64,000 nucleotides of DNA from Sulfurimonas sp. HSL-3221 (GCF_021044585.1 NZ_CP087998.1:682001-746000); one strand, 5' to 3'. Positions 18,928 to 42,556 are shown, numbered from the stretch's first letter. Notes: generated from the sequence alone by a model not told the origin. Numbers and translations: made by a program.

Positions 18928-19469
18928 GCTTCCGAGGCCTCCAGGGTCAGGATTTTGATCTCATGGTTGGTGTAGATGCAGAGGTCCGCCGCGATATGCA
19001 AGCTCTCCTCGACGAGGGCCTCGGGTGCCATGTCAGCATGCTTTTTCAGGGCACGGGCGCTGGCAATGGCGTAGTTGCCGCCGCTGCCGATGGAGGCAAT
19101 TTGGCCATCCTCGGGCTCGACGACGTCGCCGTTGCCGGTGAGGATAAAGATATGCTCGGTGTTGAGGACGATCATCATCGCTTCCAGACGCCGAAGGACC
19201 TTGTCTTTCCGCCACGCTTTTGAGAAGTCGATAATGGCCTTGACCATGTCCCCTTTGCGCGCGGAGAGGAACTCCTCGAACATGTCGAAGAGGTTGAAAG
19301 CGTCCGCCGTGGAGCCGGCGAATCCGGCCAGCACCTGGCCGTTGTGCAGTTTGCGGATCTTAGTGGCGTTGTTTTTTAGGACGGTGTGCCCGAAAGTGAC
19401 CTGCCCGTCCCCGCCGATGACCGCTTTGCCCTCACCCTTGTACGCGAGGATCGTCGTTGCGTCGAACAT
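18924..19469 (-). CDS. hslV: ATP-dependent protease peptidase subunit HslV
   Basis: Proteasome-like threonine peptidase of 181 residues. The conserved GGDGQVTFG and [18 protein letters not shown] segments and the late [15 protein letters not shown] are present. The N-terminus reads MFDATTI, so the Thr-Thr aligned to the usual mature N-terminus is preceded by four residues rather than by the initiator Met alone; removal of MFDA would be needed for a Thr nucleophile. The start shares one base with the rplI stop (TAATG) and the end overlaps hslU. Confidence 0.96.
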
Positions 19470-30749: not shown

Positions 30750-33700
30750 ATGGCGCTCAAAGTCGTAATCTCCCACAAAACCGCTTACCAGTATGACCGT
30801 TACGTGTCGCTTTCGCCGCATACCATTCGTTTGCGCCCCGCGCCGCACAGCCGCACCCCGATCGAGGCGTACTCGCTCAAGATCAAGCCGGAGAACCACT
30901 TTATCAACTGGCAGCAGGACCCCTTCGGCAACTACCTCGCCCGTATCGTTTTCCCTGAAAAGACGAAAGAGATGAGCATCGACGTCGAGATCATTGCTGA
31001 CCTGATCACCATCAACCCTTTCGATTTCTTCGTCGACGAGTATGCGCAGGACTTCCCGTTCAAGTACAAGCCGGCGCTGAAAAAGGAGCTGCTGCCCTAC
31101 CTGGAGATTACGGACAAAGGCAAAAAGCTCAAGACGTTCATGGAGTCGCTCGACCTGAAGACGAAACGCAATATAAACGACTTTCTCGTCTACCTCAACA
31201 CGGAGATCCACAAGTACCTCGACTATACGATCCGGCTCGATCCGGGCGTGCAGACCTGCGAAGTGACCCTGGGCAACAAACTCGGCAGCTGCCGCGATTA
31301 CGCCTGGCTCTTCGTGCAGGTACTGCGCCACCTGGGACTCGCGGCGCGTTTCGTCTCCGGCTACCTTGTCCAGCTCACCGCTGATGTCAAATCCCTCGAC
31401 GGCCCGAGCGGCCCGGAAGCGGACTTTACGGACCTGCACGCCTGGACGGAGGTCTACGTCCCGGGGGCGGGATGGATCGGTCTCGATGCGACCAGCGGCC
31501 TCTTCGCCGGGGAGGGGCATATCCCCCTGGCATGTACGCCCCATTACGACAGCGCCCACGCCATCGACGGGGCGACGGATAAATGCGAGACGGAGTTTGA
31601 TTACTCCAACACTGTCACGCGGATCTTCGAATCGCCCCGGGTCACCAAGCCCTACCGCGACGAACAGTGGGAGGCGATCTACAACCTCGGGTTCGAGGTC
31701 GACAGGGAGCTCGAAGCCAACGACGTCCGTCTCTCGATGGGGGGCGAGCCTACTTTCGTCTCCATCGACGACATGGAGTCCGAGCAGTGGAACACCGAAG
31801 CCGACGGCGAACACAAGCGCGAACGTGCCGACGTCCTGGCGCACCGGCTGCTGGGGACCTTCGGCAAGGGCGGGATGCTGCACTACGCCCAGGGGAAATG
31901 GTACCCGGGCGAACCGCTGCCGCGCTGGCAGAAGTCGGTTGTCTGGCGCAAAGACGGCAAGCCGATCTGGCGCAACCCGAACCTTTTTGCCGACATGAAC
32001 GCGACCTACAGCTACACGACCGAAGACGCGAAGCGTTTCATGGAGCTGCTGTCGCTGACGCTGGGCGTGAGCGACAAGAACATTGTCGAAGCCTATGAAG
32101 ACCCCGTCTACTACGTCGTCAAAGAGGCCGAGCTACCCATCGACGTCGATCCGACGACGTTTGACCTGGATGACCCGCTCGAGCGCCGTACCCTGGCGCA
32201 GCTGCTACAGCAGGGGCTGGCCAACCCGGTCGGCTATGTCCTGCCGCTTAACTACGGCAAGACACGCTGGATCACCTCGGCATGGGAGTTCCGCCGCGGA
32301 AAACTCTTTCTCAGTGCGGGGAACTCGCCGCTGGGCCTGCGGATGCCACTGGAGTCGCTGATGGCCAAACCCCATGTGGAGCTGGCGCAGAACTTCGAAC
32401 CCGACCTTTTTGCAGAGGCCCCGGCACTGGGGGATTACCTTGACGATGCGCGGGCACGCTGCGAAGCGGCGACCCCGGAGACGACGGAGGCGAACCGTTA
32501 CGACGCCTTCGTGCGGACGGCGATCAGTACGGAAGTGCGCGACGGTAAACTCTATATCTTCCTGCCGCCGCTCAACCACACAGAGGCCTTCCTGGACCTC
32601 ATGGCCTCCATCGAGGCGGTCGCGGCGAAGCTCAATGTCAAAGTCGTCCTCGAGGGGTACGAACCGGCCCACGACAACCGCATCGAGCGCATCAAAGTGA
32701 CCCCGGACCCGGGGGTTATCGAGGTTAACATCCATCCGGCGAAGAACTGGAGCGAACTGACCGAAACGATGCTGGGACTTTACGAGGACGCGCGCCAGTC
32801 GCGGTTGGGAACGGAGAAGTTCATGGTCGACGGCAAGCATACGGGTACGGGCGGGGGGAACCATGTTACCATCGGGGCGATGACGCCGCACGACAGCCCG
32901 CTGCTGCGCCGCCCGGAACTGCTGCGCAGTCTTATCACCTTCTGGCAGCACCACCCCTCCCTGAGTTACCTCTTCTCCGGTGCTTTCATCGGCCCGACCT
33001 CCCAGGCGCCCCGTGTCGACGAAGGGCGCGCGGAGAACCTCTATGAACTGGAGATCGCCTTTGCGCAGATCCCCGAAAATGGTGAGGTGCCCTACTGGCT
33101 CACCGACAGGCTCTTCCGTCATATGCTCACCGACATCACCGGCAATACCCACCGTTCCGAGTTCTGTATCGACAAGCTCTACTCGCCCGATTCGAGCACG
33201 GGACGGCTGGGCATCCTGGAGCTGCGCGGTTTCGACATGCCGCCGCATTCGCAGATGGCCCTGATGCAGATGCTGCTGGTACGCACCCTGGTCTCGCTCT
33301 TCTGGCGCAAGCCCTACCGCCACAAACTGGTGCGGTGGGGGACCCAGCTGCACGACAAGTTCCTGCTGGAACACTACGTCAAAGAGGATATCGCCGACAT
33401 CGTCCGTTTCCTCAATGCCGAGGGATACCCCTTCGAGCTGGACTGGTTCGACCCCTTCTTCGAGTTCCGCTTCCCGCTTTACGGCATGGCGACGGTGGAG
33501 AATGTCCATCTCGAACTGCGCGCGGCCATCGAACCGTGGAACGTCCTGGGAGAAGAGAGCGGATCGCAGGGGACATCGCGCTATGTCGATTCGTCGCTGG
33601 AGCGCGTCCAGGTCAAAGTGAACAACTTCGTTCCGGAGCGCTATGTGCTCACCTGTAATGGGGTCGCGGTGCCGTTGAACCCGACGGGCGTCGAGGGCGA

Positions 33701-34121
33701 GTTCGTCGCCGGGGTCAAGTACAAAGCGTGGGAGCCGTGGTCGGCGCTGCACCCGACGATCGGGGTCGACACCCCGCTGACGTTCGATGTCGTCGACCGC
33801 TGGAACCAGCGCTCCATCGGGGGGATGACCTACTACGTTTCCCACCCGGGCGGCCGCAGCTACGATACCTTCCCCGTCAACAGCTACGAGGCGGAGTCGC
33901 GCCGAATTAACCGTTTCTGGGGCTTCAACCATACCCAGGGCAGTGTCGATGAGGTGCCGACCCACGTGGTCGAACAGGCGCTGCCGGCAGGGGAGCGTGA
34001 AGTGACGCGCAAAGTGGCCGAGAAGCACGCCGGCGACAAGGTCTTTGTCTTCCAGGAGCTGCCGCGCAGCGCCGAGTATCCCCATACGCTGGACCTTAGA
34101 CGGAAATGGACACGGGTGTAA
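30750..34121 (+). CDS. Transglutaminase-like peptidase fused to DUF2126 amidoligase
   Basis: Large 1123-residue fusion. The N-terminal third is a COG1305-type transglutaminase-like domain with the triad Cys181 (LGSCRDYAW), His230 (DLHAWTEVY) and Asp246 (GLDATSG). The remaining part is DUF2126 (COG4196), which published analyses group with glutamine-synthetase/GCS-like amidoligases. Its signatures here include [35 protein letters not shown] and [16 protein letters not shown]. The expected chemistry is ATP-dependent amide bond formation coupled to thiol-dependent cleavage or transfer; the substrate is unknown. The ATG at 30750 has AAGGA upstream. The next gene starts directly after its stop. 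Confidence 0.88.
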
Positions 34122-36614
34122 ATGGGGATTTTCGACCGCTATTTTTCCGAAAGCTCCTTTGACGAGATGGTCGATGCGCAGCGGCAGTGCCGCCCGCATT
34201 GGCAGGCGATCTGCGACCAGATCGAGGCGACCGGCATCGAGGGGCTGAAAGCCAAACAGGCGGAGCTGGACTGGAGCCTCGAAGAGAACGGCGTCACCTA
34301 CAACGTCTACGACGCCCCCGACGGGATCACCAAACGGCGCTGGACGCTCGATCCCATCCCCTTCGTCGTCACCCAGACGGAGTGGGACGGCGTCGTCAAG
34401 GGGCTGCGTCAGCGCGCGAAGCTTTTCGACCTGATGCTGCGCGACCTCTACGGCGACCAGCTTCTGCTGCGGCAGGGGATCCTGCCCGCCGAAGTCGTCT
34501 ACGCCCACAAGGGGTACGCGGCGGAGATGTTCGGTTTCGGACACAAAATGGATTTTGAACTCTTCTTCTACGCGACGGACATGGCGCGGGGGCCCGATGG
34601 CAAGTTCTGGATCGTCAATGACCGTATCCAGGCCCCGTCGGGCCTCGGTTACGCCGTCGAGAACCGCCTGAGCATGAACATCATCGCCAAATCGCTCTAT
34701 CCGGGGGTACATACCCGCCGGCTCGCGGGCTTCATCGAAGAGATGAAATCGATGATCGACCGTCTCAGCGGTGGGGACCGCTCCAAGGCGGCCCTGCTGA
34801 CGCCGGGACCGCACAACGAAACCTATTTCGAGCACGCCTATCTCAGCTCCCTGCTGGAGATCAGCCTGGTGCAGGGCGAGGACATGCTGGCCAAGGACGG
34901 GGCGCTGTGGCTGAAAAACCTGAGCGGCCTCACGAGGATCAACACCCTGCTGCGCCGGGTGGACGACCGCTACTGCGATCCGCTGGAGCTGAAAAACGAT
35001 TCGCACCTGGGGGTGGCGGGGCTGGTCGATGCCGCGCGCCGGGAGAACCTGGCGATGATTAACCCCATCGGCAGCGGCATCCTCGAGAACCTCGGCTTCA
35101 ACCCCTTTATGAAGAACATTGCGAAGTTCTTCCTCGACGAAGAGCTGATCCTGCCGCAGATCGCCACCTGGTGGTGCGGGCAGCCCGGCGAACTCGAATA
35201 CGTCCTCGAAAACCTCGAAGGGCTCATTGTCAAGCACATCGACCGTACGGAGAGCGCCAAGGTCTATTTCGGCCGGAAGATGGACGCGGAAGAACTCGAT
35301 GCGCTGAGAGCACGGCTGAAGGCGGCGCCGCACCTCTACGTGGCGCAGGAGGAGATCGGTTTCTCTACCGTGCCCTATTTTACCGGGGAGTCCGTCGAAC
35401 CGCGCAACGCCGTTATCCGTTCCTACGCCTTCAAGCGCGGCAGCCAATACTGGGTGATGAACGGCGGGCTTGTACGCGTCGCCTCGCAAAAAGACGCCTT
35501 CTTGATCTCGTCGCAAAAAGGGGGCACCAGCAAGGACCTCTGGATCGTCGGCGAGGATGAGGAGCGCGCGCCGAGCAATCCGTTCAAACAGCTGCCGTGT
35601 ATTGACGCCTCCATCGACCAGATCCCGACCCGCAGGGCGGAGAACCTCTTCTGGCTCGGACGCTACCTCTCGCGCGCGATTATCACGACGCGCCTCATCC
35701 GCTACGCGGTCAAGCGCCTCATCAACGTCTACCGCGACGAGTCGAACACCGCCGGGGAGTCGCAGCACCAGCTGCTGCGCGCCATTACGCACATGACGAT
35801 GACCTATCCGGGATTCCTGAACAAGAAAAAGGCCGACAAGCTCCTGGACAACCCGATGAAAGAGATCGTCTCAGTGCTCAAAGATCAGGGCCGGACCGGG
35901 TCGCTCTCCTTTACGCTGGCAATGCTGTCGGGTTCAAACGTCAGCATCAAGAACCTGCTGGGCATCGAAGCGTGGAAACTCTTCGACAAGCTCCAGTGGG
36001 AGTGGCAGGCGTTCTGCAGCGCCAATACCCGCATGAACCGCACCATCGTCAATGAGATGGACAAGCTGCATGTGAACCTGCTGGCGTACAAGGAGCTCGT
36101 CGAAGAGAGCATGTTCCGCGAGCAGGGGCTGGTCCTGTACGATATCGGCTACCGGATCGAGAGCGTCCAGCTGCTGATCTCCAAAGCGCGCTCCCTGCTC
36201 TGCCCGCGCCAGGAGAAGGCCGAGGAGTATGAACTGCTCGAAGCGCTGCTCAACACCTGCGAGAGCTTCAATGCCTACCGCGCCCACTACCGCAGCGCCC
36301 TGCAGCTCGAGAACGTCATCGAGTTCCTGCTGCTTAACCCGCAGTACCCGAAATCGTTGACCTACCAGACCCAGAAACTGCTCTCGGACCTCAAAGACCT
36401 GCCGAAGTCCCGTACCCACCTCACCGAGTACGAGGCGCCGATATTCCAGGCCTATTCGCGCCTGAAGCTCGCCACGGCGCAGGCGCTGCTGACCTATGAG
36501 GAGTCCGACGGCATCTACAAGGAGCTTGATGGGCTGCTTTCCGAGCTCTCCGAGCTCTTTATGAAGGCTTCGGACGAGTTTTCGAAAACCTATTTTTCCC
36601 ATTACGACGAGTGA
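34122..36614 (+). CDS. Circularly permuted ATP-grasp protein fused to alpha-E domain
   Basis: 830-residue fusion. Residues about 1-480 match the circularly permuted ATP-grasp family (COG2308), e.g. LTPGPHNETYFEHAYLSSLL and the late GGLVRVASQKDAFLISSQKGG. Residues about 505-820 are an alpha-E (DUF403, COG2307) helical domain starting RRAENLFWLGRYLSRA. Compared with the stand-alone paralogue at 40117-41481, the EDNLRVPSG segment reads VNDRIQAPSG, and the glycine-rich EAGGYGVMFG reads RTESAKVYFG, so ATP use by this copy is doubtful. The ATG follows the upstream TAA with no gap, and the stop nearly touches the next start, so it is operonic. Confidence 0.87.
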   Translation: MGIFDRYFSESSFDEMVDAQRQCRPHWQAICDQIEATGIEGLKAKQAELDWSLEENGVTYNVYDAPDGITKRRWTLDPIPFVVTQTEWDGVVKGLRQRAKLFDLMLRDLYGDQLLLRQGILPAEVVYAHKGYAAEMFGFGHKMDFELFFYATDMARGPDGKFWIVNDRIQAPSGLGYAVENRLSMNIIAKSLYPGVHTRRLAGFIEEMKSMIDRLSGGDRSKAALLTPGPHNETYFEHAYLSSLLEISLVQGEDMLAKDGALWLKNLSGLTRINTLLRRVDDRYCDPLELKNDSHLGVAGLVDAARRENLAMINPIGSGILENLGFNPFMKNIAKFFLDEELILPQIATWWCGQPGELEYVLENLEGLIVKHIDRTESAKVYFGRKMDAEELDALRARLKAAPHLYVAQEEIGFSTVPYFTGESVEPRNAVIRSYAFKRGSQYWVMNGGLVRVASQKDAFLISSQKGGTSKDLWIVGEDEERAPSNPFKQLPCIDASIDQIPTRRAENLFWLGRYLSRAIITTRLIRYAVKRLINVYRDESNTAGESQHQLLRAITHMTMTYPGFLNKKKADKLLDNPMKEIVSVLKDQGRTGSLSFTLAMLSGSNVSIKNLLGIEAWKLFDKLQWEWQAFCSANTRMNRTIVNEMDKLHVNLLAYKELVEESMFREQGLVLYDIGYRIESVQLLISKARSLLCPRQEKAEEYELLEALLNTCESFNAYRAHYRSALQLENVIEFLLLNPQYPKSLTYQTQKLLSDLKDLPKSRTHLTEYEAPIFQAYSRLKLATAQALLTYEESDGIYKELDGLLSELSELFMKASDEFSKTYFSHYDE

Positions 36615-36616
36615 GC

Positions 36617-37564
36617 ATGATTTACGATATTTTCCACGAAACGGTCTTCCATTATCAGAGTCTGGTCACCTTCAGCCACAACATCGCGCGGCTGAAGCCC
36701 AAAGAGGGGCGGGAGCAGGAGCTGCTCTCGTTCCGGCTCGACGCGGAGCCGTACGCGTCGGAGATCCATGCCTTTGTCGACATGTTCGGCAACACCAACC
36801 ACCATCTGCTGCTGCGCGAACCGCACACCTCCCTGACGGTGACGGGACATTCACGGGTGCGGCGCAAAATCAAAGAGGCGCACCGGGCAATCGAACGGCT
36901 TCGCAAAGGGGCTGTCTCCTATGACAAAGCGCTGCAGCGCCTCTCGGGCTTCAACACGCGCGACATCGCCGCCAAGCAGTTTCTCTTCGCGTCGGACCTC
37001 GTGCCCGTCGATATCGCGCCGCTGCACGACTACGCCTTGGAGTCCTTCCATCCGGAGCGCAGCCTTTTCGAGGCGGGCGAAGAGCTGATGGGTCGCATCT
37101 TCGAAGACTTCGAGTTCAATCCCGCGTTCAGCGACCTGACGACCCCCGTGACGACGATCTTCGAAGAGAAAAAGGGGGTCTGCCAGGATTTCGCGCACCT
37201 GGCCCTCTCCGCGCTGCGCTCCATCGGGTTGCCGGCGCGCTACGTGAGCGGCTACATCGAGACCATCCCGCCCGAAGGCACGGAGAAGCTCTTCGGCGCG
37301 GACGCGTCGCACGCCTGGGTATCGCTCTACGTCCCCGGGAGCGGCTGGCTCGACCTCGACCCGACGAACAACATCATTCCCCTGGAGCAGCACATCGTCA
37401 TGGGGCACGGACGGGACTACGACGATATCTCGCCGCTCAAAGGGGTGGTGCGGGGGAGCGGGCAGAGCCGGCTCAGCGTCCGCGTGGACGTCCGGCGTGC
37501 CACTGAGGAAGATGAAGAGACGGCACCCACCCAGATACAGTCACAGTCGCAATCGTCGAAGTAG
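36617..37564 (+). CDS. Transglutaminase-like cysteine peptidase
   Basis: Stand-alone COG1305 protein, 315 residues. An N-terminal beta-rich domain (MIYDIFHETVFHYQSLV) of the bacterial transglutaminase N-type is followed by the catalytic core with Cys189 (GVCQDFAHL), His232 (DASHAWVSL) and Asp248 (DLDPTNN). No signal peptide, so cytoplasmic. The C-terminal tail is Gln/Ser rich. A GTG at 36611 overlapping the previous stop is an alternative start. It is the last gene of the plus-strand operon and ends 16 nt from a convergent M14-like gene. Confidence 0.88.
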   Translation: MIYDIFHETVFHYQSLVTFSHNIARLKPKEGREQELLSFRLDAEPYASEIHAFVDMFGNTNHHLLLREPHTSLTVTGHSRVRRKIKEAHRAIERLRKGAVSYDKALQRLSGFNTRDIAAKQFLFASDLVPVDIAPLHDYALESFHPERSLFEAGEELMGRIFEDFEFNPAFSDLTTPVTTIFEEKKGVCQDFAHLALSALRSIGLPARYVSGYIETIPPEGTEKLFGADASHAWVSLYVPGSGWLDLDPTNNIIPLEQHIVMGHGRDYDDISPLKGVVRGSGQSRLSVRVDVRRATEEDEETAPTQIQSQSQSSK

Positions 37565-37580
37565 CGCCGCCGCAACCGGC

Positions 37581-38513
37581 CTAATGGATCTTCGCGATGC
37601 GGTAGGCGACGGCATTCTCGAAGATCAGCGAGTGCATATAGATACAGGTGATCATGCCGTCGCAGGGGGCGAGGAAACGGTGGATGACCTCCCCTTCGAG
37701 TGAGTGGACGATCTTGCCGATCGTCTCATCCTTGGAGACCGTCGTCCCGGGTGTCTGCGTCGGGATAAAGATTCCGCTGCGGGGGCTTTTGATGACCTCG
37801 ATGCGTTCGCGGGTCACGACGGTCGAGTTGTAGCCGTTGAATGCCTCGTAGCGGATGATGCCGCTGTGGCTGAGGAAGTTGATGAGGCTATCCATGATGA
37901 CCCGGGCGGATTCGGGGTCGATCAGGGGTTCATGGGGGCAGACTACGGAACACGCCTTGGCCCCCCAGAGCTGCCAGTTGTACTGCAGCGACACCGTCTC
38001 GATCGATTCGGGTTCGCGGTGGTGAATGACCTTGAGCCCCAGCCAGCGGGCGCTTTTCACATCTTCGTATCCGGTCTTGAAGAGTTTGACGTAGGGCAGG
38101 CAGGTGGCGAGGTCGGTCCGCGTCTCCAGGATGATGCCGTAGTCGTAGTCCTGGACCGCTTCGAAGAGGCGGTGGGCGATGCGCTGCGTCGTTTCGCCCT
38201 CGTTGTAGCCCGGGAACATCATGTTGATGTCGGTCTTGTCCAGGGGCCAGAAACGTTCGTTGATGTTGAGGGCGTAGTGGTTGACGGAGGGGATGACGAG
38301 GATATTGCCCAGGATCTTTTCGCTTCCGAGTTTGTTGCGCAGGAAATCGACCAGCTTCGACGCGCTATACAGCGGCAGGGTCGTCGCCCCCTCCATGGCG
38401 CCGATAACGGCGACGCTGGGGGCATCGGGGTCGCTCCCTTCGAAGAGGTACCCCTCGACGACCATCGGCGCGCGGCTGAGGGACTCGAGTTTCAGGATCT
38501 CAATTTTTTTCAT
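37581..38513 (-). CDS. AstE/AspA (M14)-like protein with missing zinc ligands
   Basis: 310-residue relative of succinylglutamate desuccinylase/aspartoacylase. The fold can be followed by comparison with the next gene: TDINMMFPG here against EIDLNRAFPG there. At the zinc motif SGIHGDELEG of the neighbour this protein has IGAMEGATTL, and at DIHSSN it has LETRTD, so the His, Glu and His ligands and the substrate Arg of NRxFPG are absent. A C-terminal biotin-lipoyl-like segment (SPRSGIFIPTQTPGTTVSKD) is retained. A non-catalytic partner is likely. The start lies inside the end of the preceding gene (14-nt overlap). Confidence 0.8.
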   Translation of the reverse strand: MKKIEILKLESLSRAPMVVEGYLFEGSDPDAPSVAVIGAMEGATTLPLYSASKLVDFLRNKLGSEKILGNILVIPSVNHYALNINERFWPLDKTDINMMFPGYNEGETTQRIAHRLFEAVQDYDYGIILETRTDLATCLPYVKLFKTGYEDVKSARWLGLKVIHHREPESIETVSLQYNWQLWGAKACSVVCPHEPLIDPESARVIMDSLINFLSHSGIIRYEAFNGYNSTVVTRERIEVIKSPRSGIFIPTQTPGTTVSKDETIGKIVHSLEGEVIHRFLAPCDGMITCIYMHSLIFENAVAYRIAKIH

Positions 38514-39456
38514 CGGGCTCTCCGAAAATCCGTGCGAGCAGGGACCCCTCGTAGACGACAGGGTATTCGCGCAGGGTGAACAAAACGCCGCCGTTGGGGG
38601 CATAGAGGGATTCGCGCACCGCCCCGCTGAGGGGGTCGACGATGTCGCCGATCCACTGTTCTTTTTCAATCACTTCGCAGTGGTCAAGGGCGGGGACAAA
38701 AAGACCGGCGGCGGGGGCGTTAATGTAAAACACCTCCCCGACCTCGGAGGTGAACGGCTCGCGGACCTTGAACTCCGTCGGGGTTTCGATGATCCCCTCT
38801 TGTTGCATCAGGTTCAGGATCCCCCGCAGCAGCTGCCGCCCGTAGGCCTTCGTCAACCGCATGCCCACCCCCATCTCGACGACAAGGGTTTTCGTCCCCC
38901 GTTCGTTCATCGTATGCGAAAAGGTCGCTTCGAGGACCGTGACGGCGTCGTGGATCCAGATGAAGTCGCAGTTGAGCTGTTTGGCCAGGGGAAGGGTCGT
39001 CTCCGAGAACGCCTTGTTGATCCGGATCTGCGGGATCTCGCGCAGGAAAATGTTGGAAGAGTGAATGTCGATGGCGATGTCGCTGCCTTCGACGTCCCCG
39101 GCCAGGGCATGCACCACCTGCGCGGGCAGGAAATCGTTGCGCGCCCCCGGGAAAGCGCGGTTGAGGTCGATCTCGTAAAGGGGGAAACCGCGGATAATGG
39201 TGTCGACTCCCAGGGAGTTGACGGCGGGGTAGATGTCGACGGTCCCACGCAGCGCCTCGGGGTGCTCGCGCAGCCAGGCGGCCAGGAGGTAGATGACGAG
39301 CTGCCCTTCGAGCTCGTCGCCGTGTATCCCGCTGACAACGCTGATGCGCTTGGCATCCGGACGCACTGTTTCCGGTGCGAAACGGGCGCGCTGGATGCGC
39401 AGCGTCTCTCCCACCGGGAGCTCGGAAGAGAAGATTTCCGTAATTTCCGGGTTCAT
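38500..39456 (-). CDS. AstE/AspA-like M14 family zinc hydrolase
   Basis: 318-residue member of the succinylglutamate desuccinylase/aspartoacylase branch of M14. Zinc ligands are intact: His and Glu in SGIHGDELEG, third His in AIDIHSSN. Substrate-binding Asn-Arg is in EIDLNRAFPG, and the catalytic Glu is probably in TLVVEMGVG. These enzymes cleave amides of N-acyl amino acids or gamma-linked Glu/Asp residues. Here the substrate is unknown, but placement with ATP-grasp and amidoligase genes suggests it trims their product. It starts 2 nt after the alpha-E gene. Confidence 0.85.
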   Translation of the reverse strand: MNPEITEIFSSELPVGETLRIQRARFAPETVRPDAKRISVVSGIHGDELEGQLVIYLLAAWLREHPEALRGTVDIYPAVNSLGVDTIIRGFPLYEIDLNRAFPGARNDFLPAQVVHALAGDVEGSDIAIDIHSSNIFLREIPQIRINKAFSETTLPLAKQLNCDFIWIHDAVTVLEATFSHTMNERGTKTLVVEMGVGMRLTKAYGRQLLRGILNLMQQEGIIETPTEFKVREPFTSEVGEVFYINAPAAGLFVPALDHCEVIEKEQWIGDIVDPLSGAVRESLYAPNGGVLFTLREYPVVYEGSLLARIFGEPDEKN

Positions 39457-39458
39457 TT

Positions 39459-40115
39459 TCAGTAGACGACGAGCTCGTCGATGAGGGCGTTGATGGCGTC
39501 GAGGTTGGCCTCTTCGTCGGTTCTGGAAATGGCAAGTTTCGCATCGGGCGCGATCTTTTGCGCCGTCTGCAGAATGTTGTTGAGGTACTCGACCGGCTCC
39601 TTCCCGTCCTTGCCGTGACGGAGGTGGAGGTCGACCTTTTCGGTCAGTTTGCCCAGGCGGACGAAGTGGTCGCTTTTGCAACGGATCAGGCCGCGGTTCA
39701 TGCTGCCCCAGATTTCGTTGATCAGCGAGAGGGCGTCGTCGACGAAGCGGTAATCGACGAAGACGGCGCTTTTCGAGGCGTGGTCGAAAAGCTCGGCGAG
39801 GTGGATCGTCTCGCCGAAGGCGTCCGTATCGATATAGGCCCGGGAGATGATCGCGTTTTCGCGGGCGAAACGCATGATCTCCGCCAGGTTGGAGGGGTGG
39901 TCCCCGAAGATGGCGTTGTCTAGGAACTGGGAGGCGTTGGCGTAGTCGAGTTCGATCTCGAGGTGCTCGAAATAGCGCCTGCCGGCGTCCTTGTCCGTGT
40001 CGATGACGCAGTCGAAGATCTCGATGACGTCAACGAGGGTTGTTTCGACGCGCTGGAGGTGGCGTCCGAACCAGTAGAGATTGGTGGCGACGTTGGTGCT
40101 CAGAAGTTGATCCAT
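39459..40115 (-). CDS. Alpha-E domain protein (DUF403)
   Basis: 218-residue all-helical protein of the alpha-E family (COG2307), with the family start TNLYWFGRHLQRVETTL and the later FGDHPSNLAEIMRFARENA. The family co-occurs with circularly permuted ATP-grasp proteins; its biochemical role is not established. It starts 1 nt after the ATP-grasp stop and ends 2 nt before the M14 hydrolase, so the three are coupled. It is a close paralogue of the product of 41735-42556. Confidence 0.87.
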   Translation of the reverse strand: MDQLLSTNVATNLYWFGRHLQRVETTLVDVIEIFDCVIDTDKDAGRRYFEHLEIELDYANASQFLDNAIFGDHPSNLAEIMRFARENAIISRAYIDTDAFGETIHLAELFDHASKSAVFVDYRFVDDALSLINEIWGSMNRGLIRCKSDHFVRLGKLTEKVDLHLRHGKDGKEPVEYLNNILQTAQKIAPDAKLAISRTDEEANLDAINALIDELVVY

Positions 40116-40116
40116 C

Positions 40117-41481
40117 TTAGAGCTCCATGACCCATGTATCTTTGAACCCGCCGCCCTGGGACGAGTTGACGAGGTAGTTGCCCGCTTCCATCGCATAGCG
40201 TGTCAGCCCGCACTCCCAGACATTGACCTTCTCGCCCATGACGACATAGGCGCGGAAGTCCGCTTTGCGGGGACTCAGTTCCCCGTTGATGAGACACTCT
40301 TCGTCGTAGAACTCAACGAGCTCCTGGGCGATAAAACGGCGGGGGTTGGCCTCGATGATCGTCTTGAGGTCATCGAGCTGGATCTTGGACATGGCGTGCC
40401 CGAACATGACGCCGTATCCGCCGGCTTCCGCGACATCCTTGACAACGAGCTTGTCGATGTTGTCGAAGATGTATTTTTTGTCCTTTTCGAAATAGGGAAG
40501 GTAAGTCGGCGCGTTCTGCATGATGGGCTCTTCGTTCAGGTAGTATTTGATCATCTGCGGTACGAAGTAGTAGATCCCCTTGTCGTCCGCCACCCCGTTG
40601 CCGACGGCATTCATGATCGCCACGTTGCCCGCGAGGTAGGCTTCGATGATGCCGGGCACCCCGATGAGGCTTTCGGGGTTGAAAAACTTGGGGTCGAGAA
40701 AGTCGTCGTCAAGGCGGCGGTAGACCGCCCCGACGCGGATGCGCCGCCCGTCGTAGTTTTTAAAGTAGAGGACCTTGTTCTCCACGACCAGTTCGGCGGC
40801 GCGGACCAGTTCGGCCCCGATCTCTCCGGCGAGGTAGCTGTGTTCGTAATACGCGGAGTTGTAGCGCCCCGGGGTCAGAACGACGTTGATGCCGCCGGTA
40901 TTGACGTAATCCATCGCGTTGCGCAGATAGGAGGAGTACTGCTTGATCGGTTCGATCTTCAGCTCTTCGAAGAACTCCGGGTAGATCTTGCGGTAGGTGT
41001 CGCGGATGGAGAGCGGATAGCTCGCCCCGCTGGGCACGCGCAGGTTGTCCTCGAGGATGACCCATTCGTCGTTCTTGGTATCCTTGACGAGGTCGATGCC
41101 GTTGATATGGGTCCTGATCTTCTGCGACGGGGAGAAACCGACGAACTCCTTGAGGTACCCTTTGGCCTGGTGGATGAAGGCTTCGGGGACGATGCCGTCC
41201 TTGACGATCTTGGCCTCGGTATAGAGGTCTTCCAGGAAGAGGTTCAGTGCCGTGATGCGCTGCTCGAGGCCGCGCTGCATCTTGCCGAACTCCTCCTTGG
41301 AGATGATGCGGGGAATGACGTCGAAGGGGAGTGAACGCTCGATGAAATTGCCGTCTTTATAGAGATTGAAATTGACAGCGAACTTATCCATATAGCGCTG
41401 AAACTCTTCGACTTTCTGTCGATCTTGCCGGGAAAAAATCTCCCAGAACTTTTCATGTAGTTTTCCAGTTTCTTCTATCAA
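40117..41481 (-). CDS. Circularly permuted ATP-grasp protein
   Basis: 454-residue COG2308 protein with intact family signatures: VILEDNLRVPSGASY, VVLTPGRYNSAYYEHSYLA, KLVVKDVAEAGGYGVMFG and a late VNSSQGGGFKDTWV. ATP-grasp enzymes join a carboxylate to an amine through an acyl phosphate; the substrate here is unknown. The start is TTG at 41481, supported by AAGGGAG 5-6 nt upstream. It heads the ATP-grasp/alpha-E/M14/M14-like minus-strand unit. The 250-bp interval to the next alpha-E gene is AT-rich at first and holds no gene. Confidence 0.87.
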   Translation of the reverse strand: MIEETGKLHEKFWEIFSRQDRQKVEEFQRYMDKFAVNFNLYKDGNFIERSLPFDVIPRIISKEEFGKMQRGLEQRITALNLFLEDLYTEAKIVKDGIVPEAFIHQAKGYLKEFVGFSPSQKIRTHINGIDLVKDTKNDEWVILEDNLRVPSGASYPLSIRDTYRKIYPEFFEELKIEPIKQYSSYLRNAMDYVNTGGINVVLTPGRYNSAYYEHSYLAGEIGAELVRAAELVVENKVLYFKNYDGRRIRVGAVYRRLDDDFLDPKFFNPESLIGVPGIIEAYLAGNVAIMNAVGNGVADDKGIYYFVPQMIKYYLNEEPIMQNAPTYLPYFEKDKKYIFDNIDKLVVKDVAEAGGYGVMFGHAMSKIQLDDLKTIIEANPRRFIAQELVEFYDEECLINGELSPRKADFRAYVVMGEKVNVWECGLTRYAMEAGNYLVNSSQGGGFKDTWVMEL

Positions 41482-41734
41482 TGTATCTCCCTTGATGCTT
41501 TTATGCGAACATCACTCCGACCCGCGGGTTTCACGGTGCCAAAGGTGGTGTGGGTATAAAAGATCATATTGCATATTCTATGAGAAAATGCTTTTATTCG
41601 GTGCTTTTGTGGTTTTCGTTTTTTCGTCAAAGCGCGGAGGGCTAGCCGCCCCGATCCGTCGATTTGATGAACGCGGCTTTTCGCAGGGGGTTCGGCATGT
41701 GGTACGGGGCGCGGCGGGTCTGTTTTGCTCGCAT

Positions 41735-42556
41735 CTAAACCACTACCAGGTTCTCGAAGAGGTCGTTGATAGCATCGAGGTTGGCCTCATCATCTTTTTC
41801 GTCGATGGGCATCTCCGCCTCCGGGGCGATCCGCTGCGCAGTGATGAGAATATTGTGCAGGTAGACGACCGATTCGTTGCCGTTCTTGCCGTGGCGCAGG
41901 TGCAGGTCGACTTTCTCGGTCAGTTTGCCCAGGCGGATGAACTGGTCGCTTTTGCGCCGCAGAAGACCACGGGCCATGATCCCCCACACCTCGTTGATGA
42001 GCGAGAGGGCATCCCCGATGAAACGGTAGTCGACCTTGGTATCGGTCTTGGCATAGGTGTCGAGGAGGTTGTAGAGCCTGATCGTCTCCCCGAAGGCTTC
42101 CGCGTCGAGATAGGGACGGCAGATGATGGCGTTTTCTCGGGCGTTGCTCATAATGGTGGCGAGGTTTGCGGGGTGGTCGCCGAAGACGGCCTTTTGAAGG
42201 AAATCCTGCGCGCTCTTGTACTCCAGCTCAATGTCCAGATGCTCGAAGTAGCGTACGCCGGCTTCTTTGTCCGTGTCAATCACCGCGTTGAAGAGCTCCA
42301 GCACGTCGATCAGGGTCGTTTCGACGCGCTGGAGGTGGCGGCCGAACCAGTAGAGGTTGGTGGCGACGTAGGTGGTGAGCAGCTGGTGTTTATGACTGTG
42401 CTGGGGCCAGGTTTCGACAAACTTTATGCTCGGGTACTGCCGGTAGTCGGCATAGCCGTTAAGATAGTCTCGGAGCCGTTTAAAAAGGGTGATGGCGTTG
42501 AACGTCCAGAGATGCTTTGGATCTCGGTCGACGGGGGGAACATGTACTGCGTTCAT
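41735..42556 (-). CDS. Alpha-E domain protein with N-terminal extension
   Basis: 273-residue paralogue of the alpha-E protein at 39459-40115. Identity is high from TNLYWFGRHLQRVETTL to EEANLDAIN-like ends (DDEANLDAINDLFENLVVV here). An additional N-terminal stretch of about 55 residues (MNAVHVPPVDRDPKHLW onward) is absent from the paralogue. A strong AGGAGG lies 6 nt before the ATG. It is separated by 250 bp from the ATP-grasp gene downstream and has its own -10-like box, so it may be expressed separately. Confidence 0.83.
   Translation of the reverse strand: MNAVHVPPVDRDPKHLWTFNAITLFKRLRDYLNGYADYRQYPSIKFVETWPQHSHKHQLLTTYVATNLYWFGRHLQRVETTLIDVLELFNAVIDTDKEAGVRYFEHLDIELEYKSAQDFLQKAVFGDHPANLATIMSNARENAIICRPYLDAEAFGETIRLYNLLDTYAKTDTKVDYRFIGDALSLINEVWGIMARGLLRRKSDQFIRLGKLTEKVDLHLRHGKNGNESVVYLHNILITAQRIAPEAEMPIDEKDDEANLDAINDLFENLVVV

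Follow-up and report, generated by a model that had tools for sequence, protein, structure and literature searches.

A conserved amidoligase operon ending in an M14 pair in Sulfurimonas, other bacteria and archaea: a probable variant of the Anbu operon

The Gene Cluster

The window, by which we mean the whole stretch of 64,000 nucleotides from Sulfurimonas sp. HSL-3221 that was analyzed (the source genome is 2.52 Mb in a single contig), carries two convergent gene modules. Module A lies on the + strand and has three genes whose stops and starts touch or overlap: a transglutaminase (TG) fused to DUF2126, a circularly permuted amidoligase (30750–34121), a circularly permuted ATP-grasp fused to a full-length alpha-E domain (34122–36614), and a stand-alone transglutaminase-fold protein (36611–37564). 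The reading frame of the first gene is open from 30645, and its likely start is the ATG at 30750, close to where the homologues begin. Module B lies on the − strand and reads, from right to left, aE1, an extra alpha-E (41735–42556, the true start being uncertain), a stand-alone circularly permuted ATP-grasp predicted to be active (40117–41481), the half-length alpha-E aE2 (39459–40115), a predicted M14 AstE/AspA-like zinc amidohydrolase (38500–39456), and psi-M14, a predicted catalytically dead protein of the same type (37581–38516). The mechanical list also has an open reading frame of 274 aa at 38723–39544, which lies in the wrong frame and is a shadow of the M14 gene. Pfam searches agree with the sequence-only reading of the interval: all eight genes exist, and its count of three alpha-E, two ATP-grasp, two TG-domain and two M14 proteins is correct. 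The joint presence of forming and cleaving enzymes to which it drew attention fits the families.

Proteins of Module A

In Pfam the first gene product matches DUF2126 (PF09899) with 1284 bits, together with Bact_transglu_N (PF08379) and Transglut_core (PF01841). The TG domain sits N-terminal to DUF2126, and its Cys-His-Asp triad is kept in 14/14. The second gene product combines CP_ATPgrasp_2 (PF14403, 432 bits) and Alpha-E (PF04168, 171 bits) in a single protein. The Mg ligands E and N of this ATP-grasp are changed to N, S or G and to R or K, respectively, and the Gly-rich loop is lost, in 17 of 17 fused copies; on these motifs the ATP-grasp part is predicted to be an inactive pseudoenzyme. 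The third gene product matches PF01841 (74 bits), and its Cys, His and Asp are intact in 20/20.

This set of a TG-DUF2126 protein, a predicted dead ATP-grasp fused to alpha-E and a TG is the same as that of the DUF2126/COG4196 transglutaminase-amidoligase module with an alpha-E-fused ATP-grasp, reportedly described by Iyer et al. in 2009. According to the Pfam description, modules of this kind pair an active circularly permuted ATP-grasp with an inactive one. As judged by motif conservation the same pairing is found here, the short form being intact in 74/74 and the fused form degenerate in 17/17. The suggestion that the duplicate ATP-grasp/alpha-E sets are unusual is not supported, the doubling being of a predicted active ATP-grasp and a predicted dead one. 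The difference is that module A faces the M14-type operon convergently or runs in its direction, and seems to stand in for the TG of that operon.

The ATP-Grasp and Alpha-E Proteins of Module B

The stand-alone ATP-grasp matches CP_ATPgrasp_2 (PF14403) with 445 bits and is related to the solved structure 3n6x. E144, N146, K348, E352 and G354 are present in 74/74 sequences and the second residue of the Gly loop in 73/74; we take E144 and N146 to be Mg ligands by homology to glutathionylspermidine synthetase. The protein is predicted from these residues to be catalytically active.

Both alpha-E proteins of module B have about half the length of the Pfam Alpha-E model (42.7 and 46.4 bits). The match of aE2 to PF04168, with 42.7 bits, covers profile positions 3–163 of 294; the protein is conserved within the operon across loci and its predicted structure is all-helical (pLDDT 93), with no Foldseek match to the alpha-E model at an E value under 0.001. 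The extra protein, aE1, was seen in the genome of the window only. It has 74% nucleotide identity to aE2 over 632 bp (dN 0.22, dS 0.87), the homologous part is 41738–42382, and the original ATG codon is lost; by its sequence aE1 is a diverged tandem duplicate of aE2.

The M14/psi-M14 Pair

M14 and psi-M14 match AstE_AspA_cat (PF24827) in Pfam with 56.6 and 35.0 bits, respectively, and profile comparison identifies them as paralogues (hhalign probability 99.9). In the first M14, H45, E48, H132 and E194 (two zinc His, the zinc Glu and the catalytic Glu) are present in 89 of 89 loci, a set in which a few genomes occur twice because they were found along two routes. In the same set psi-M14 has His at neither zinc position and the catalytic Glu in 0/89. 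Judged by these residues psi-M14 is a pseudoenzyme which has retained the fold while the HxxE...H zinc site and the catalytic Glu are gone.

M14 enzymes of the AstE/AspA type cleave N-acyl amino acids. Hydrolases of this type (DoeB, 3cdx, CphZ) share fold, zinc ligands and catalytic Glu with the first M14, whose best solved relatives are 3cdx and DoeB (6twm); one branch of the AstE-type relatives hydrolyses beta-Asp-Arg (PMC10206079). The psi-M14 model (pLDDT 89.5) has the same fold and overlays DoeB 6twm and 3cdx (Z 30 to each) and CphZ 8ein/8eip, with Z ranging from 27 to 30 overall. In contrast to these hydrolases, the M14 described here stands in tandem with a dead paralogue and is tied to an amidoligase operon.

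Spread and Conservation of the M14-Type Operon

The order was sampled with 150 Campylobacterales genomes, including loci named Arcobacter, Sulfurospirillum and Sulfuricurvum; the Sulfuricurvum genome belongs to the same family as that of the window. Close homologues of M14 (56–74% identity) were found in 12 of them, the genome of the window included, and each of the 12 has a second, diverged M14 immediately downstream of the first. A species-wide scan of 84,980 species with an M14 alignment gave at least 80 named loci, a sample which is anchored on M14 and so biased towards M14-bearing operons. The full order, ATP-grasp/half alpha-E/TG/M14/psi-M14, is found in Lachnospiraceae, Ruminococcus, other Clostridia, Negativicutes, Methanomethylophilaceae archaea and some Campylobacterota; in Campylobacterota outside this group the operon mostly has no TG, and a Treponema locus shows TG, M14 and psi-M14 at a contig edge. 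In 78 of 80 named loci psi-M14 comes directly after M14, and as the remaining two (L087 and L105) stop at a contig edge this holds for all 78 testable loci. The ATP-grasp and alpha-E adjoin the M14 pair in 73 of the 80; five loci are cut off, and two (L132 and L138) are without ATP-grasp/alpha-E.

A check which is not anchored on M14 was made with 291 Clostridia genomes. Seven have a full-length PF14403 protein and all seven have a close M14 (E below 1e-100); in three others the M14 pair is present and PF14403 is not. The divergence of the five operon proteins is congruent, with Mantel r of 0.85–0.95 and 0/999 permutations as high. The ATP-grasps of the M14-type operon form one clade separate from the Anbu-type (SH-aLRT 99, in a quick tree with long outgroup branches). 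Two Campylobacterota have ATP-grasp and alpha-E without M14, and since they nest inside the M14-type clade the absence of M14 in them is a loss. These two, together with the few genomes in which the M14 pair is found alone, mean that the parts of the operon can act apart.

Coupling of the Two Modules

Module A is present in 9 of the 150 Campylobacterales genomes, and the stand-alone ATP-grasp is present in every one; outside Campylobacterota no module A was found in the two sets tested (0/27 and 0/9 genomes). In genomes that carry both modules the two are mostly neighbours, convergent in genomes G000, G020, G037, G052 and G139 and in many named loci, co-directional in G137/L088 where one is flipped, and apart in G043. 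The sequence-only reading had been prepared to call the cluster coincidental if the genes of the two strands were in unrelated places in relatives and had no shared phylogenetic profile. In the relatives examined the modules are adjacent in most of those with both, even when flipped, and the phyletic profile is common to both, so the cluster is not coincidental.

The TG of module B behaves according to the presence of module A. Its triad is intact in nearly all module-B TGs, and the four without the catalytic Cys (C to S in L071, L072 and L073, C to R in L098) all occur in genomes with module A. In the other 25 genome entries with module A that were examined the module-B TG is missing, whereas it is intact in G039, G078, G089, G116 and L099, where module A is absent. 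An exception is L095, an incomplete MAG, in which module A and the TG of module B are both not seen. The plain reading of this distribution is that the TG of module A took over the role of that of module B.

Relation to the Anbu Operon

Valas and Bourne 2008 and Iyer et al. 2009 are said to be the sources for the Anbu operon, the families of which are ATP-grasp COG2308, alpha-E COG2307, transglutaminase COG1305 and the proteasome-type Ntn protein Anbu COG3484. ATP-grasp/alpha-E/TG/Anbu operons are described in PMC6376114 and PMC5666114, both of which cite Iyer 2009, and this is at variance with the earlier suggestion that the system is undescribed. The ATP-grasp of the Yersinia Anbu operon frees phosphate from ATP, and Anbu had no peptidase activity on the substrates tried (PMC6376114). 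Plasmids of Klebsiella and Limimaricola carry ATP-grasp, alpha-E, TG and Anbu in that order; in other plasmid operons the fourth gene is missing or an unrelated zinc-binding metallopeptidase is near, which indicates that the hydrolase slot is changeable. On plasmids the M14 search gave, among the matches listed, generic AstE relatives only (25–31% identity).

The M14-type operon has the ATP-grasp, alpha-E and TG families of the Anbu operon in the same order, with the hydrolase position last. The circularly permuted type 2 ATP-grasp is present with its motifs kept; alpha-E is beside it, with about half the domain length; the TG is an operon member in Clostridia and in a part of the Campylobacterota, and is supplied in the window by the adjacent module A. 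Anbu itself was found in none of the 150 Campylobacterales genomes and in none of 41 operon-bearing genomes, while as a positive control the same Anbu query matches Anbus of 45–46% identity in control records. At most one PF00227 protein, of the HslV type, is present per operon-bearing genome of the order, and the match in the genome of the window is HslV, located within the window. Because Anbu is absent from the operon-bearing genomes the M14 pair occupies its slot. The M14-type operon thus differs from the Anbu operon by having an active/dead M14 pair in place of Anbu, a half-length alpha-E and a separate clade of ATP-grasps, and with an Anbu-operon trait lacking it is filed as a variant and not as an Anbu operon.

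The system is real, conserved and functionally coupled, and it belongs as a variant to the known class of Anbu operons. What looks unreported is a module B that ends in an active/dead M14 pair in the place of Anbu. The sequence-only reading had noted it merely as an added M14 pair. It should be noted that the literature searched, which did not cover Iyer 2009, had no mention of the M14 version, and this is weak evidence of novelty. M14 is a mechanistically understood family, so the replacement of Anbu by M14 narrows down the bond made and cut by the whole class. The hosts of the operon include many Clostridia of gut and rumen as well as methanogenic archaea.

Proposed Function

We consider it probable that module B represents the Anbu-type amidoligase operon in a variant form, with M14 and an obligatory dead partner in the place of the proteasome-like hydrolase, and that it works with module A in Campylobacterota. 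ATP-grasps form amides via an acyl phosphate. Together with its partner alpha-E, the stand-alone ATP-grasp would activate a carboxylate in this way and couple it to an amine. A TG-fold thiol enzyme may trim or transfer the product, and M14, which probably forms a heterodimer with psi-M14, would hydrolyse the amide or isopeptide and free an amino acid; psi-M14 could be a dimer arm or a specificity subunit. Module A would contribute a glutamine-synthetase-like amidoligase and supply the TG. We think it most likely that the operon serves to make an amide or isopeptide at the expense of ATP and to cleave it with M14, probably within nitrogen metabolism. The likeliest product is a small nitrogen-rich amide or isopeptide, or a conjugate of it, which would be made and used there.

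This nitrogen-linked cycle is suggested by the chemistry of ATP-grasp and M14, by the nitrogen response of related operons and by the context of the solo M14 pair. In Pseudomonas putida PP_2685 (Anbu) and PP_2688 (ATP-grasp) are up by log2 4.4 and 4.0 on nitrate vs ammonium (PMC8050072), the ATP-grasp/alpha-E/TG cluster of Burkholderia cenocepacia is dependent on NtrC and sigma-54 (PMC5491218), and in marine metagenomes these operon domains cluster with urea metabolism (PMC3597751). A solo M14 pair adjoins an amino-acid ABC transporter, a PucR regulator and a class-III aminotransferase.

Other functions can be imagined for the same genes. The ATP-grasp and the amidoligase could attach an amino acid or a peptide to proteins, from which M14/psi-M14 would remove it, in parallel to tubulin tyrosine-ligase-like enzymes and cytosolic carboxypeptidases and to RimK/RimB. 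The pairing of ATP-grasp and peptidase is typical of glutamylation systems (RimK/RimB, PMC12239564), and tagging has been put forward for the Anbu operon (PMC6376114). RimK/RimB and RloABC share the logic of an ATP-grasp ligase with a peptidase with the present operon, but their peptidase is of the retropepsin type and its fold differs from M14; the RloB transglutaminase is inactive and membrane-bound (PMC12239564), whereas the module A TG keeps its triad (20/20). As the closest solved relatives of M14 are hydrolases of N-acyl amino acids and isodipeptides, not polyglutamylases, the operon is without a candidate target protein and the solo M14 pair has a catabolic context, we think protein tagging rather unlikely. 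Much the same standing is given to a nitrogen reserve, a storage amide or polymer made and mobilised by analogy with cyanophycin and its M14-type beta-Asp-Arg hydrolase: M14-type cyanophycin dipeptide hydrolases exist (PMC10206079), 8ein/8eip match in structure, and homologues are under nitrogen-starvation control (PMC8050072, PMC5491218), but M14 is closer in sequence to 3cdx and DoeB than to CphZ, neither a cyanophycin synthetase nor a cyanophycinase appears among the flanking genes listed, and no storage compound is known.

The M14 pair might also be an independent amidohydrolase that travels with the ATP-grasp operon by chance, as its occurrence without PF14403 in 3/291 Clostridia genomes and alone at L132 and L138 would allow; the fixed gene order, the single ATP-grasp clade, the congruent divergence and its finding in 7/7 ATP-grasp genomes of the unbiased Clostridia sample make this improbable. 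Least probable to us is the synthesis of a secondary metabolite (a peptide natural product), in which the M14 pair would serve for tailoring or self-protection. ATP-grasp amide ligases do make such products, and the first proposal for this locus was of the same kind, but no recurrent precursor peptide, NRPS or dedicated exporter is beside the operon, the same five genes across phyla look like core metabolism, and related operons respond to nitrogen.

A bolder reading, which we put forward tentatively and would not count as the likelier outcome, is that in bacteria and archaea an M14/psi-M14 heterodimer would have replaced a proteasome homologue in the role of "eraser" within a reversible amide/isopeptide conjugation system based on ATP-grasp, with ligase and hydrolase both being active/dead pairs in Campylobacterota.

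Surroundings of the Operon

The nitrogen link is derived from distant homologues, not from the M14-type operon, and the flanking genes of the operon are not uniform. Among Clostridia the flanks have amino-acid ABC transporters, a C26 gamma-glutamyl hydrolase and a FUSC protein in common only inside single lineages or at a few loci, which is weak evidence. An Arg/guanidine substrate, suggested by a DDAH-like neighbour at L133, was set aside as this is a single locus. Rfam, at its gathering thresholds, revealed no relevant riboswitch or further RNA upstream in 17 loci, and a promoter/terminator scan gave hits no more numerous than in shuffles. Between modules A and B relatives carry inserts, namely a transporter, a chemoreceptor or an enolase gene, which have nothing in common.

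Origin and distribution of the operon genes

The alpha-E gene aE1 (41735-42556) is a duplicate of aE2, the half-length alpha-E gene of the operon, with a nucleotide identity of 74%, and was found in the window's genome only. The ancestral start codon has been lost in aE1, the N-terminus is new, and dN/dS for aE1 versus aE2 is about 0.26.

The five-gene operons of Methanomethylophilaceae archaea (L113, L115 and L117) cluster with Clostridia sequences, and this grouping points to a transfer of the genes between gut organisms. The Sulfuricurvum metagenome-assembled genome L095 carries module B (the operon) and lacks both the module-B transglutaminase and module A, the set with the DUF2126 amidoligase; either the assembly is incomplete or this is a real exception.

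At nine Ruminococcus-group loci a gene for a peptidase C26 (gamma-glutamyl hydrolase-like) adjoins the operon (e.g., L157 4102-4830). At another locus (L133 395-3846) an amino-acid ABC transporter and a DDAH/arginine-deiminase-like gene are found directly upstream.

Proteasome-like proteins and other M14 genes

HslV (18945-19466, inside the window) is the sole proteasome-like protein in the window's genome. Among 150 Campylobacterales a second match to the proteasome-type profile PF00227 was found in one genome only (G119:C50:20012-20503, E 4.5e-5), and the ATP-grasp profile PF14403 was not found in that genome.

The window's genome has, at another place, an additional AstE-type paralogue (G000:C1:1183961-1184788) with 30% identity to the M14. 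An M14/psi-M14 pair without ATP-grasp occurs at L183 1-9738, where it adjoins an amino-acid ABC transporter, a PucR regulator, a class-III aminotransferase and an Fe-alcohol dehydrogenase.
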